From NCBI GenBank assembly GCA_023954745.1, contig JAGSHC010000001.1, positions 78,356-142,355 of the forward strand: DNA of 64,000 nucleotides. The letters run 5' to 3'. The stretch is from Deltaproteobacteria bacterium (GTDB lineage Bacteria > Myxococcota_A > UBA796 > UBA9615). Numbering within the stretch: the stretch's first letter is position 1; each line of letters begins with the position of its first letter. The notes beneath the pieces were generated by a model. The model was not told where the DNA came from. It did no database searches and saw nothing but the letters and a program-made list of their open reading frames with translations. The position numbers were made by a program, and so were the translations under genes. Shown piece by piece: positions 15,355 to 21,298 of this stretch.

Positions 15355-16848
15355 TCAGCCGCCCGCGGCGGCCATGCGAGCGATGCGGTCCTTGGTCAGT
15401 GACCGATCTGGCCAACGGGAGCGCATGTGGTCGAGCACCTCTCGCGCTCGCTCCAGTCGTTGACGCTGAAGAAGTACATCGAAGGCCAGAGCGACGAATG
15501 GCAGGTCGTCGGGCTCGAGAAGGAGCATCCGCTCGGCCATTTGTTCGCGATCTGCTGCCAGCGCGCGCCCCTCTCCCAAGTGCAGCTCCAGCCAGAGTCG
15601 CCAGTAGAGGACCTCTGAAGCATCCGGCTCGGAGACCTCGAGCTCGGCGAGCAGGCCTTCGGCCTCCTCGCGCTGACCCAGCCGAGCCAGCGTCGCCGCG
15701 AGAGCGAGGCGGGAGCTGTTGTCCCCCTCCACCAAGGCACTGCGTGCCTGGCGCACCGCGTCCGTCTCCGTGAGGGAGAGGGAGGTGAAGGCTCGCTGTC
15801 GCACCCTCTTGTACGCACCCCAGTGCTCGATGGGGTGCACGAACTGAAGAGTGGTGACGTGGGCGCCCCGGACGCACCCGAGGTCGAGAGACCGCAGCAG
15901 ATCGCCATCGACGACCAGATCCGCTTCCATCGTGAAGCAGCCCTCCAAGGACTCGGGCATGCGAGGCGCGAGGGCCATGTCCCGCGGGGAGACCACCGCG
16001 CCTCCGCGCTCCAGCGACGCGACCCAGGCGGCCTTCACCGATGCTCGGGATGGTGGCTCGTGCTCCTCGACCCAGGCGCTGCTCGTGAGCCGCGCCGCGC
16101 CGGTCGGAGAGCGCCAGCTCGGAGCTCCATCGGCTTGCTCGCTGATCCACGTGCGGGGCGGTGCCAGTCGGTACCCCGCCTGGGGGAACTCCACCGGGTC
16201 TCCCGGGCTGACCGTGCCGATGAAGTCCAGGCCCCAGGCAGCAGGCATGAGGACGCCGGCGCCGAACAACACGCCCGCGGCGGCGGCGGCGCGCATGGGG
16301 GCCCTCCAGCTCTCCGCCGGCGTCTCGACGTGGGCCGAGGGCAACGTCATTCCCAGGGCGCCGCCCGCCATCAGACCGCCGAGGTGGCAGAAGTTGTCGA
16401 CCCAGTCGGACCACATGGCCCCGAATGCCAGGAAGTAGACGACGAAGGGGAAGACCGACCACCCGAAGCGCGCTGCGGTGCGCGGGGGCAGCCACTCGCC
16501 GTAGCGCCAGCCCAAGGCCACCGCGGCGCCGAAGAGCCCGAAGGTGACGCCCGACGCGCCGACCGTAGGAAGCGGGGTCGCCACGCTGGAGACGATCATC
16601 GAAGCGACAGCTGAGCCCACGACAACGAGCAGCGTGCCGGTGCGGCCCAGCAGGGACTCCACGTTCCAGCCGACATACAGAACGTAGAGAAGGTTGGGGA
16701 TGAGGTGGGTCCACCCTGCGTGCAGAGCGGAGGCCGTGACGAGCCGCCACCACTGACCGAGCTCTACCTGGTGGGGGAGGGACTTCGCGCCCTGCTCGAT
16801 GAGGACGGCGCTCGTGAGGGTCCCAGCGCGGAGCTGCCAGGCAAACAC
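15355..16848 (-). CDS. Rhomboid intramembrane serine protease with TPR-like C-terminal domain
   Basis: 497 residues from GTG at 16848. Rhomboid core: WTHLIPNLLYVLYVG (HxxxN), catalytic Ser99 in GASGVTFGLFG and catalytic His155 in DNFCHLGGLMAGG, so the dyad is intact. Rhomboids cut transmembrane segments of membrane proteins. After the core, about 300 soluble residues end in TPR-like helices (DNSSRLALAATLARLGQREE, EGRALAADREQMAERMLLLE). The frame stays open upstream and encodes the rest of transmembrane helix 1 (PWVTLAGAAILIVVFAW), but no ATG/GTG/TTG occurs before an in-frame TGA. The real start may therefore be a rare codon such as CTG at 16956, overlapping nothing essential. The gene follows the MmgE/PrpD segment on the same strand. 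Confidence 0.88.
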   Translation of the reverse strand: MFAWQLRAGTLTSAVLIEQGAKSLPHQVELGQWWRLVTASALHAGWTHLIPNLLYVLYVGWNVESLLGRTGTLLVVVGSAVASMIVSSVATPLPTVGASGVTFGLFGAAVALGWRYGEWLPPRTAARFGWSVFPFVVYFLAFGAMWSDWVDNFCHLGGLMAGGALGMTLPSAHVETPAESWRAPMRAAAAAGVLFGAGVLMPAAWGLDFIGTVSPGDPVEFPQAGYRLAPPRTWISEQADGAPSWRSPTGAARLTSSAWVEEHEPPSRASVKAAWVASLERGGAVVSPRDMALAPRMPESLEGCFTMEADLVVDGDLLRSLDLGCVRGAHVTTLQFVHPIEHWGAYKRVRQRAFTSLSLTETDAVRQARSALVEGDNSSRLALAATLARLGQREEAEGLLAELEVSEPDASEVLYWRLWLELHLGEGRALAADREQMAERMLLLEPDDLPFVALAFDVLLQRQRLERAREVLDHMRSRWPDRSLTKDRIARMAAAGG

Positions 16849-16960
16849 GACGATCAGGATCGCGGCGCCGGCCAGAGTGACCCAGGGGATCTGGCGCAGG
16901 GAGAAGGCCGCCAGGAAACGGGCCTGCTCGTCGCTGGGCTCGTCGAGGTAGTCCAGGACG

Positions 16961-17806
16961 TCAGCCTCCGAGAAGGAAAGCGGGACCGTCTCCGGGCAGG
17001 GGCGTCAGGTGCGTCCCTCGCGCGTTGCCCACACCCAGGAGCGCCTCGGCGAGCGAGTGGTGCCGGGCCTGGTCCGTGGGGTCCGCCTGGAGGAGCGCCT
17101 GGAGCAGCTTCGCGCGCACCGCAGCCCTCCGCTCCTCGGGAGGACGCGCGGGGCTCCCCGCTGGCTCGTCGACGGCCGCCTGGTGCACGTGCCCGCCGTG
17201 AAGGAGGACGCGAACCCTCGCGGGGAAGACCACATGAAGTCCTTCGAGGGACTGCTCTGCGAGGTCGAACTCGTCGGAGCGTCGAGGGGTCACTGCCGCG
17301 GGCAGCAACCGCTCCAGACCGCGCGCCGCGAAGTCGGTCAGCTTGCTCAGGCCCCGGCCGAACAGCGCAGGGAGCTCGTCGGGGGGGACGCCTTGCAGTC
17401 GATCACCTGCGATGGCCAGAGGGAGCTCGGTCAACGACAGCCCGGCTTCCAGACCGCCGCCCCGGCCGAGGGCGGAGAGCAGCGGCCCAGGCCCCACCTC
17501 GGTGAGCAGACGCTGCACTCCCGTTCCCCGCAGGGCGTTCCAGCTGGCGAGCGAGAGCCGCCAGTCGTGATGGACGCGGATCTTCTCGGCGAGGGAGTCG
17601 ATGGCCTCGGAGTGGTCGGCGACCCAGGCGCGGGTCAGCTGCTGGGGGCCCAACTCTCCGGCGATGAGGAGCACCGCGATGGACCGGCGGACCGAGTAGT
17701 TGACCGCGGAAGGGCTCAGCTCCAGGCCTCCTACCACCCGCTCCATGGCGCTGGTGAGCGCTCCACAGTCGACGTCGACGCGGAGGATGTCGTCGGGTCC
17801 GAGCAC
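16961..17806 (-). CDS. MmgE/PrpD family protein, C-terminal segment (after an in-frame TAG)
   Basis: 281 codons from GTG at 17806. It is in the same frame as the upstream segment 17843-18685: removing the TAG at 17845-17843 joins both into one chain of about 575 residues (..AAVEAT, stop, QVLEEVRTADDR, VLGPDDILRVDVDCG..). It matches the PrpD C-terminal domain in style (LSPSAVNYSVRRSIAVLLIA, then a late FPARVRVLLHGG with a Pro-Gly-rich strand). The family includes 2-methylcitrate dehydratase and cis-aconitate decarboxylase; the substrate here is unknown. It could be a separately translated subunit, a pseudogene half or a readthrough product. No Shine-Dalgarno precedes the GTG. Confidence 0.65.
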   Translation of the reverse strand: MLGPDDILRVDVDCGALTSAMERVVGGLELSPSAVNYSVRRSIAVLLIAGELGPQQLTRAWVADHSEAIDSLAEKIRVHHDWRLSLASWNALRGTGVQRLLTEVGPGPLLSALGRGGGLEAGLSLTELPLAIAGDRLQGVPPDELPALFGRGLSKLTDFAARGLERLLPAAVTPRRSDEFDLAEQSLEGLHVVFPARVRVLLHGGHVHQAAVDEPAGSPARPPEERRAAVRAKLLQALLQADPTDQARHHSLAEALLGVGNARGTHLTPLPGDGPAFLLGG

Positions 17807-17842
17807 GCGATCGTCGGCGGTCCGTACCTCCTCGAGGACCTG

Positions 17843-18685
17843 CTAGGTCGCCTCGACGGCTGCCGTCAGGTAGTCGCAGCCAGGGACGCACTTGACGGTG
17901 AGAGACCAGGTCAGCCACGCCGTCCCGGAGGGATCTTCGACCGGGAGTCCACTGAACCAGCCGCGGACCGGACGCCCGCCAGCGAAGACCGAGGTGAACT
18001 CGGAGTCCTCGTCGAGCAGACCCACCGGTCCGGTGACTCCCTCCTCTACGAGCTCGGCCACACGCCAGCCATCGAGCAACGGGCGAGCGGCCATCAGGGT
18101 CTTCCCCGGGCCCGAGAACAATCGCCAGTCCACGTGGGAGGCCTGCGCGAGGGTCAAGGCCATTCCGGACGCGAGCTGCTCCGGCGAGTGTCCGCGCAGG
18201 AGACCACCGACCAGCGCTCCACCGACCCCGTGCAGAAACGACCAACTCTGGCCGTTCTGCCGTCCGGGGAGGCAGTAACCGCCCAGCCGCGCGAGGATCT
18301 CGTTGGCCACGATCTGCGCGCGCAGCGCCGCATCCCAGCCGAGGCCGAGCTCTGCTGCTCCGACCCAGGCGGCCCAGACCGCGCTGTGGCTCGGGTGCGC
18401 GCAGAGCATCCAGTCGTCGTAGTCGTGCGCCATCGACAAGGAGGCGCCTGCGAAGAGAGCGCCCTCCATCGTCAGGCCGTCCACGCCGGGGGCGATGCGG
18501 TGCGAGCCCGCACCCATGCGCCGCGCCACGGTCAGGGCGATCTGCGCGTCCTCGGAGTGCACCCCGGCCGCTGCGGCAGCCAGCGTGGACGCTGCTTGAA
18601 GTCGGAGTCGCTCGCGTAGGGCGGGCGGTACATCGGCGATGGAGACCGAGTGAGCCCACCGAGCCATGTGGAGCAGCGTGCTCAT
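17843..18685 (-). CDS. MmgE/PrpD family protein, N-terminal segment ending at premature TAG
   Basis: 280 residues from ATG at 18685 (MSTLLHMARWAHSV), overlapping the Pnkp stop by four bases. All-helical MmgE/PrpD N-terminal domain: RLQAASTLAAAAAGVHSEDA, DGLTMEGALFAGASLSMAHD, DYDDWMLCAHPSHSAVWAAW (the family His-Pro-stop-interface region), and LARLGGYCLPGRQNGQSWSF. It ends SLTVKCVPGCDYLTAAVEAT, where family members carry the K-x-Y-P-x-C-x-x-x-H region and continue without a break. TAG ends it in the middle of the normal fold, and the remaining domain follows in frame. Both halves keep sensible sequence, so the break is recent, an error in the sequence, or tolerated. Confidence 0.7.
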   Translation of the reverse strand: MSTLLHMARWAHSVSIADVPPALRERLRLQAASTLAAAAAGVHSEDAQIALTVARRMGAGSHRIAPGVDGLTMEGALFAGASLSMAHDYDDWMLCAHPSHSAVWAAWVGAAELGLGWDAALRAQIVANEILARLGGYCLPGRQNGQSWSFLHGVGGALVGGLLRGHSPEQLASGMALTLAQASHVDWRLFSGPGKTLMAARPLLDGWRVAELVEEGVTGPVGLLDEDSEFTSVFAGGRPVRGWFSGLPVEDPSGTAWLTWSLTVKCVPGCDYLTAAVEAT

Positions 18686-19986
18686 CCGGCGGTCGCCTCG
18701 TCGCTGGGGGTCATGGTGTCCGCTGGCTCCGCCGCGCCCCAGCGGCCTCCGCCCCACCAGGCCTTCTCGGCGGGAACGGTGACGAAGGTCTTCTCCGGCC
18801 AGCGCATGGCGCAGAGGTCCCCGCCGAACACGACGCCGAGATCGATGTCTGCGACTCGGTTCCGCCATTGCGGAAGCCGAACGGGGACATGGCCGTGGGC
18901 GACGTAGGCCGCGCCTTCATAGTCGGCGGCCCAGTCGAGTCTCTCGGGGTACCCGTCGATCACCTTGCCCGTCGTCTTCCCGAACAAGCAGAACGCCGAG
19001 ACCGCGTCGCCGGTGCGCCCGTGATCCCTCTCCTCGAGACCCGCGTGGGAGACGAGGAGACGACCCCCGTCCAGCCACAGGTAGTGCGGAGCCTCTTTCA
19101 TGACCGCGAGGAAGCGCCGTCGCAGGAGTCGCTCCTCGGGGGCGCTCAACTGCTGCCACTCGCCCACGGTGGTCGCAAGCCCGCCCGTCACCTTGACGGC
19201 GCGTCCATGCAGCCAGCGAGCCAGCTTGTCGTCGTGGTTCCCGGGGACGAACAGGGCTCGCCCTTGCTCCACCCAGGGCAACACGCGTCGAAGGACCCCC
19301 ACCGAGTCGGGCCCACGGTCTACGAGATCACCGACGAAGACCAGGCGGCGCCCTTCGGGATGCTCACCGTCCTCGTCGTAGCCCAGCTCTCGCACCAGGG
19401 TGTCGAGCTCGGACAGGCATCCGTGCACGTCACCCACCACATCGAAGGGGCCCTCCTCCTCGAAGCGAACGGGGGGCAGCGTGGTTCGCACCACCTCCGC
19501 GGACTCGAGCTGTTGGGCATCGATGCGGTCGATGCGCCCCCAGCGCTCCTTCTCGAGGGCGGCATCGAGGTGCTCGACCATGTGCAGGTGACCGCGCAAG
19601 ACGCCGTCATCGACGCGTCGGTCTCGCCGCTGATTGCGCTCGCGGATGGTCTCGAGGTCGGCCGAGATCACGATCAGGTGAGACGGAAGACGCGCGCGCC
19701 GGGCCAGCTGGCGAAGTGGCAGTCGCGCGGATGCTTCGAGGTTCGTGGCGTCGATCACCGTCAGACGCCCGTTCGCGAGCCGTAGCTCGGCGATGCGGTG
19801 CAAGACCTCGAAGACGCTCTCGTTGATCCCTTGCTCCGCGGGGTTGTCGCAGAGCCAGCCGCGCACGGTGTCGGCGCAGAGGACCTCGGTCTCCCGGAAC
19901 CAGCGCGCGGCGAACGTGCTCTTCCCGCAGCCTGCGGGTCCGCAGAGCACGACGAGAGAGGGTTCCTGGACGGCGAGGACAGTCAC
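18682..19986 (-). CDS. Bacterial Pnkp-like polynucleotide kinase-phosphatase without ligase domain
   Basis: 434 residues from GTG at 19986, directly before the P-loop domain. Kinase part: Walker A GPAGCGKSTFA (16-26), TVIDATNLEASARLPL and a lid-like RERNQRRDR. The calcineurin-type phosphatase part has all metal motifs: GDVHGC (185-190), GDLVDRGPDS (219-228), GNHDD (249-253) and LLVSHAGLE. Bacterial Pnkp heals broken RNA by phosphorylating 5'-OH ends and removing 2',3' phosphates, and usually has a third, ligase domain and a Hen1 partner; both are absent here. The role may be RNA or DNA end repair, or another phospho-substrate. It starts an overlapping chain with MmgE/PrpD. Confidence 0.85.
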   Translation of the reverse strand: MTVLAVQEPSLVVLCGPAGCGKSTFAARWFRETEVLCADTVRGWLCDNPAEQGINESVFEVLHRIAELRLANGRLTVIDATNLEASARLPLRQLARRARLPSHLIVISADLETIRERNQRRDRRVDDGVLRGHLHMVEHLDAALEKERWGRIDRIDAQQLESAEVVRTTLPPVRFEEEGPFDVVGDVHGCLSELDTLVRELGYDEDGEHPEGRRLVFVGDLVDRGPDSVGVLRRVLPWVEQGRALFVPGNHDDKLARWLHGRAVKVTGGLATTVGEWQQLSAPEERLLRRRFLAVMKEAPHYLWLDGGRLLVSHAGLEERDHGRTGDAVSAFCLFGKTTGKVIDGYPERLDWAADYEGAAYVAHGHVPVRLPQWRNRVADIDLGVVFGGDLCAMRWPEKTFVTVPAEKAWWGGGRWGAAEPADTMTPSDEATAG

Positions 19987-20038
19987 AGAGCTCGGTGATA
20001 GCAGGGCAGCGGCGCGATCGCGCCGGTGGGGTGTGCGA

Positions 20039-21298
20039 TCACGGCACAGGAGCAGGCAGCCGAAAGCTGTCCGCGGGCGCGGAGAGGCCCAGAACGCCTG
20101 CGAGCCCGGGCCGTGACGCCGCGAGGGCGCTGCGCAGAGCAGTGCTGTCGTGGGCGGCGAGGGCATCGCCGATGTCGGTGTCCGCGAGGGCCCCAATGAG
20201 GACGGGAGATTCCCAGTGAGGCTTCGCATCGCTCCCGGGGGAGCCCACGACCTGTGCCGAGTACCGCACGATGAGGTCGTCACTCAAGTGTGATCCGCCT
20301 CCAGGCAGGTCTGCGTTGGGGCTTGCCGGGAGGAGCAGCACCGCCTCGGGCGCGGGCGTCAACATCGTGGGGTCGAGGAACGACGCCTGATGCACCCGCA
20401 CCGGGACCGACTCCCAACCCGTCGTCCATCGCGCGGCGAGGTCGCCTACGAGATAGAGGGCGGAGAGCTTCGTCACCGGGGTCGCGAGGTCCTGCAAGGG
20501 AAGGCCAGCGGCGAGGGCTCCCACGGTCCCGCTCCTGCCGAAGACGAGTGTGTGGCGGACCTCCGAAGGCCATCGCTCCTCGGCGTGGTCCGCTCGCCGT
20601 CGCTCGACGAGAACTCCGCGGGCCTCGAGTGACGCCACGACCTCGCCGAACAGGGGCTGATCGCCGTCGCTCACCAGCAGCGCCCGGTCCCCCGGAGAGA
20701 GCTCCACCGACGACGCGCTGCTGCTGGCGTGCCCGAGGGCGGCCCGTGCCGCGCGACGCAGTGTGCGCTCGCCCGCGGGGACGGCGAGGTCGATCAGGGG
20801 AACCTCGGTGCTCTCTCTCCGCTCGCGCCGCCGCTCCATGCGGTCTGCGAAGCGCGCGAGCTGGAAGAGAGTCTCCAGGTCGAGACCGTGCGGATCGACC
20901 CGCAGGCCCCACCGCGCCTCTGCGCGCTCGTCCCGAAACCGGGCCGCGGCGAGGTTCGTCGCGTCGGCCCAGGAGATGGGGTGGAAGCCGTCACTGCCTC
21001 GGCGAATCATCGGGCGCGGGATGCGGCCGAGCCCTCGGAGTGCCCGCGCGGAGAGCCCTCGCAAGGAGCCTGGGTGCTCGAGCAATCCGGGCGAGAAGGC
21101 AGGCGCGGTCTCGCGTGAGAGCCGATCGAGCCGGCGGCCGCACAGGTGTCTCCCCGGCACGACCCCGGTCAGGCCAGAGCTTCCCAGCGAGCAGTCGGCG
21201 CACGCGCCATGGCGCAGCACGTCCCACGCAAAGGACAGCTTGCTTCGATGAGTCCACAGCGCCCCCAGAGCGGGCGCGACGAGTCGGTCGGGTCGCAC
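20039..21298 (-). CDS. Reduced, probably degenerate molybdopterin oxidoreductase next to fdhD
   Basis: 419 residues from GTG at 21298. The N-terminus resembles the Fe-S loop of FdhF-like oxidoreductases (HGACADCSLGSSGL, then GRHLCGRRLDRL), followed by IPRPMIRRGSDGFHPISWAD, the usual lead-in to the Mo-bisPGD domains. The C-terminal third resembles the family end (RVHQASFLDPTML, EAVLLLPAS, GGGSHLSDDLIVRYSAQVVG). The middle, which normally carries the cofactor core, is too short: 419 residues against 700 or more. It may be an internally deleted relic or a non-catalytic offshoot. It faces fdhD across 24 bases, and FdhD sulfurates exactly this enzyme class. Distant homology read by eye. Confidence 0.6.
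   Translation of the reverse strand: MRPDRLVAPALGALWTHRSKLSFAWDVLRHGACADCSLGSSGLTGVVPGRHLCGRRLDRLSRETAPAFSPGLLEHPGSLRGLSARALRGLGRIPRPMIRRGSDGFHPISWADATNLAAARFRDERAEARWGLRVDPHGLDLETLFQLARFADRMERRRERRESTEVPLIDLAVPAGERTLRRAARAALGHASSSASSVELSPGDRALLVSDGDQPLFGEVVASLEARGVLVERRRADHAEERWPSEVRHTLVFGRSGTVGALAAGLPLQDLATPVTKLSALYLVGDLAARWTTGWESVPVRVHQASFLDPTMLTPAPEAVLLLPASPNADLPGGGSHLSDDLIVRYSAQVVGSPGSDAKPHWESPVLIGALADTDIGDALAAHDSTALRSALAASRPGLAGVLGLSAPADSFRLPAPVP

Follow-up and report, generated by a model that had tools for sequence, protein, structure and literature searches.

A gene of the MmgE/PrpD family in the window, as we call the whole 64,000-nucleotide stretch of DNA that was analyzed, from an uncultured bacterium of soil or water type, is interrupted by an in-frame TAG codon. 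We consider this probably to be the outcome of a recent single-base nonsense change in the genome's only MmgE/PrpD gene, which would leave the enzyme broken or very weakly expressed. The gene occupies positions 16961 to 18685 on the minus strand and comprises 575 codons, including the terminal TGA. Translation of the frame placed the TAG at codon 281 (positions 17843 to 17845, minus strand) and showed no other internal stop, confirming what an earlier reading of the sequence alone had claimed. The next codon is CAG, so that the TAG is directly followed by C, as that reading had also noted.

MmgE/PrpD sequence lies on both sides of the stop

Open frames by themselves are weak proof of a gene here, since the strand opposite the MmgE/PrpD gene is also open, for 536 codons (positions 17009 to 18619, plus strand), probably as a side effect of the biased codon use of GC-rich DNA. 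The N-terminal part of the frame (positions 17846 to 18685, minus strand; 280 codons), whose ATG shares bases with the TGA that ends the upstream gene, matched the Pfam family MmgE_PrpD_N with 63.8 bits against a curated cutoff of 32.1 (E = 1.8e-17). The C-terminal part (positions 16964 to 17842, minus strand; 293 codons), searched alone, matched MmgE_PrpD_C with 37.9 bits against a curated cutoff of 32.1 (E = 2.1e-9). The claim that MmgE/PrpD sequence is kept on both sides of the TAG was thus borne out. With the frame read through the TAG, the MmgE_PrpD_C score was 42.5 bits and the match began at residue 270, ahead of the TAG, which therefore sits inside the C domain and not between the N and C domains. 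Beyond the Pfam match, the frame continues into a C-terminal stretch of about 190 residues (positions 16964 to 17540, minus strand) that is common to loci L002, L003, and L007 of relatives and runs longer than in solved members of the family.

The assembly sequence likewise has one TAG inside the frame, but this is no independent check, since the window was taken from the assembly itself. A profile search with PF03972 matched the genome once, so that by this profile MmgE/PrpD is a single-copy gene, and we rejected a paralog or donor copy.

The stop is not shared with aligned relatives

We checked related genomes for the gene and for the stop. Counting the window's own genome, an MmgE/PrpD match was present in 36 of 141. 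Within the genus, G001 alone gave a match; there the gene is uninterrupted across query residues 2 to 570, at 56% identity. Homology on both sides of the TAG together with this intact relative indicates that the break is real as a sequence feature. We aligned the window protein with 20 relatives, leaving out 9 partial or interrupted loci. None of the 20 had a stop at the codon 281 column, a variable position among these relatives (D, E, F, L, F, D, H, N, H, E, D, V, L, S, A, R, E, D, N, and E). Among the loci left out of the alignment was L012, from G058, a relative in the same class. Its MmgE/PrpD-like frame is interrupted close to the N terminus by a separate TAG, which, lying at a different place, says nothing about a shared mechanism.

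The surrounding gene order (positions 15355 to 20283, minus strand) is the same in G001. Upstream lies a gene with AAA_33 kinase-like and calcineurin-like phosphatase parts (positions 18682 to 20283, minus strand), and downstream lies a rhomboid gene (positions 15355 to 16956, minus strand). A second relative, G004, has the phosphatase part, MmgE/PrpD, and rhomboid. There is no obvious functional link among the three genes. In the region from 16848 to 17004 (minus strand), the rhomboid frame has no ATG, GTG, or TTG ahead of the GTG at 16848. That GTG falls within the apparent first membrane helix, and a protein started there would be without about 50 N-terminal residues found in G001 and G004. 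We infer a possible start at the CTG at 16956, which lies 8 nt past a GGAGG and 4 nt past the MmgE/PrpD stop.

The break falls within a predicted helix

We predicted the structure of the read-through frame from 21 sequences (mean pLDDT, 85.0; pTM, 0.87). Residue 281 lies in the middle of a predicted helix spanning residues 271 to 291, in blocks with pLDDT values of 94 to 96, so the break is not at a domain or loop boundary. Compared with the PDB, the predicted fold matched 2hp3_A (TMt, 0.77) and 5mux (TMt, 0.75 to 0.76); over the matches to cis-aconitate decarboxylase, PrpD/MmgE, and iminodisuccinate epimerase, the best E value was 7.9e-15. At least 23 PDB chains matched at an E value of ≤0.001, all of them, among the matches listed, MmgE/PrpD/IRG1/IDS epimerase proteins. 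Sequence-profile matches included 7bra (E = 4.2e-26), 2hp3 (E = 2e-21), and 1szq.

In having both Pfam domains and the fold, the protein resembles the MmgE/PrpD superfamily, which includes 2-methylcitrate dehydratase, cis-aconitate decarboxylase/IRG1, and iminodisuccinate epimerase. It is longer than these proteins, however, at 574 residues versus about 450 to 490, with an extra C-terminal stretch, and its identity to solved members in the Foldseek alignments is 13 to 17%, so that its substrate cannot be named. Residue 280, the last before the TAG, is sixteen residues past the lysine of a VKCVPGC motif, a putative active-site residue. Judging from the predicted structure, a protein ending at residue 280 would lose half of the helix and the whole C-terminal domain, and we infer that it would be inactive.

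The position of the break also bears on a functional split, in which two polypeptides, the second restarting at the GTG at 17806, would assemble into one enzyme. This GTG (positions 17804 to 17806, minus strand) is the first in-frame start codon past the TAG, and a Shine-Dalgarno (SD)-like AGGAGGT lies between the two; the Pfam N and C domains, moreover, are on opposite sides of the TAG. However, the AGGAGGT ends 19 nt before the GTG, which would probably be too far for efficient use given the usual SD spacer of 5 to 9 nt, and G001 has no start codon there, the aligned residue being L. The break inside the predicted helix and the start of the MmgE_PrpD_C match ahead of it in the read-through frame also argue against two separate chains. 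The split with restart, which the sequence-only reading had listed, thus gained no positive support, and we regard it as highly improbable.

The frame past the stop shows no clear decay

Identity to G001 was 178/279 residues (0.64) before the TAG and 138/289 (0.48) after it. An intact pair of loci, L005 and L006, showed a matching drop, from 183/271 (0.68) to 58/112 (0.52), so there is no extra decay past the TAG. The frame is kept, with a coding signal per codon of 0.36 after the TAG versus 0.25 before it, and a search for a second lesion in the 293 codons past the TAG found no further stop. Because frame and coding signal are kept, the change, if real, should be recent; the lack of decay would mean either a recent change or a gene that is not a pseudogene.

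In a three-sequence test with G004 as the outgroup, the window copy kept the outgroup residue at 33 sites versus 68 for G001 (P = 0.001), a hint, at the level of sequence comparison, of relaxed constraint on the window copy. The same test gave 14/20 and 30/38 for the neighbor genes, and the contrast in residue retention between MmgE/PrpD and these neighbors did not reach significance (Fisher P = 0.15). When 19 outgroups were used, the N-terminal part alone gave the signal (5 versus 16; P = 0.027), which was absent past the TAG (20 versus 22; P = 0.88). With a nonsignificant neighbor contrast and a signal limited to the N-terminal part, we keep relaxed constraint as a hint and do not take it to prove the age of a pseudogene.

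The lack of a second lesion and the persisting coding signal also suit the main rival explanation, an error of sequence, consensus, or assembly in the draft that conceals an intact gene. One wrong base would suffice, the draft is in 481 contigs, and the gene of the same-genus relative is intact. On the other hand, the contig is 150,958 bases long, completeness is 100, and contamination is 0.59. None of the 66 ABC_tran and none of the 48 adh_short matches of the assembly (114 matches) contained an in-frame stop, which argues that the assembly is not riddled with errors and that such stops are uncommon in well-conserved families; they may be commoner in dispensable genes. We consider an error possible, if unlikely.

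TAG is an ordinary terminator in this genome

We scanned 689,560 bases in 41 stretches (GC, 0.678) for gene-end-like stops on the basis of codon bias. The 344 found comprised 202 TGA, 131 TAG, and 11 TAA codons; within the window, TAG accounted for 7 of 21. The RF1 gene, prfA, scored 518.8 bits against a cutoff of 423.25. TAG ending 131 of the 344 frames and RF1 above its cutoff support a standard code, in agreement with the sequence-only reading. Rfam located 46 tRNA places, and ARAGORN gave a readable anticodon for 45. None of these 45 was CUA; one of the 46 was unreadable, and the tRNA set is incomplete, with four amino acids lacking a gene among those read and Trp, Asn, and Ile not seen. 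The best PylS match, at 22.7 bits, was below the cutoff of 178.15. The TAG gene ends, the presence of RF1, and the PylS score together spoke against genome-wide recoding of TAG, which we rejected. The 100 nt past the TAG folded no better than shuffled sequences (z = +1.17), and no Rfam family matched positions 16800 to 18900; these searches thus gave no structured RNA or Rfam element at the TAG. TAG is an ordinary terminator here, and nothing points to special decoding.

The scan also recorded stops after which the same frame continued, coding-like on both sides, and we rejected an excess of such continuation after TAG. There were 13 among the 131 TAG, 12 among the 202 TGA, and none among the 11 TAA codons, and most look like adjacent genes, the next start codon being no more than a few codons away. 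The scan threshold was 0.35, and the 60 codons ahead of the focal TAG score 0.27, so that the focal TAG fell below it and similar cases will be missed.

These results weigh on the proposal that readthrough of the UAG, by natural misreading or a suppressor tRNA, is efficient enough to be useful and gives some full-length enzyme. The persistence of frame and coding signal past the TAG is compatible with readthrough, as are the C directly following it and the gaps in the tRNA set, and a survey, PMC7918605, argues that many bacterial genes carry in-frame stops and that purifying selection often acts on them. Set against this are the absence of the stop from all 20 aligned relatives, the normal use of TAG as a stop throughout with RF1 present, and the failure to find a CUA anticodon among the 45 readable tRNAs, a PylS above its cutoff, or a downstream fold. 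Readthrough, another suggestion of the sequence-only reading, therefore found no positive support, and we judge it distinctly unlikely. It is very unlikely that the TAG serves as a leaky brake, with UAG misreading supplying low-level full-length MmgE/PrpD and the same event setting the dose of the coupled rhomboid.

DISCUSSION

According to the nonsense change that we favor, a single base would recently have changed to create a TAG at codon 281 of the sole MmgE/PrpD gene. Translation would stop at residue 280, short of half of a core helix and the C-terminal domain, and the enzyme would be lost, or made in traces when UAG is naturally misread. Translation of the rhomboid gene downstream may also be reduced, since its putative start abuts the MmgE/PrpD stop. 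Several points count against this reading: in-frame stops look rare in this assembly, the hint of relaxed constraint is weak, the kept frame and coding signal past the TAG would also suit a functional full-length gene, and an error would yield an identical sequence. The sequence-only reading had put forward four options and chosen none; with relatives intact, the stop not common to them, and no decay past it, its recent nonsense change or sequence error is supported.

PMC7918605 describes in-frame stops in bacterial genes as mostly short-lived as well as widespread, which fits a recent nonsense change. A literature search on MmgE PrpD combined with pseudogene found nothing. The case matters little beyond annotation, where an interrupted gene, rather than two proteins, should be recorded; were the TAG confirmed by reads and the junction spanned by peptides, this would become one more tolerated in-frame stop in bacteria.

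The case is ordinary. The comparison covers one genome of the species, and in having one stop, intact orthologs, and no further lesions the gene resembles other bacterial pseudogenes or polymorphisms that carry a lone nonsense codon in frame.
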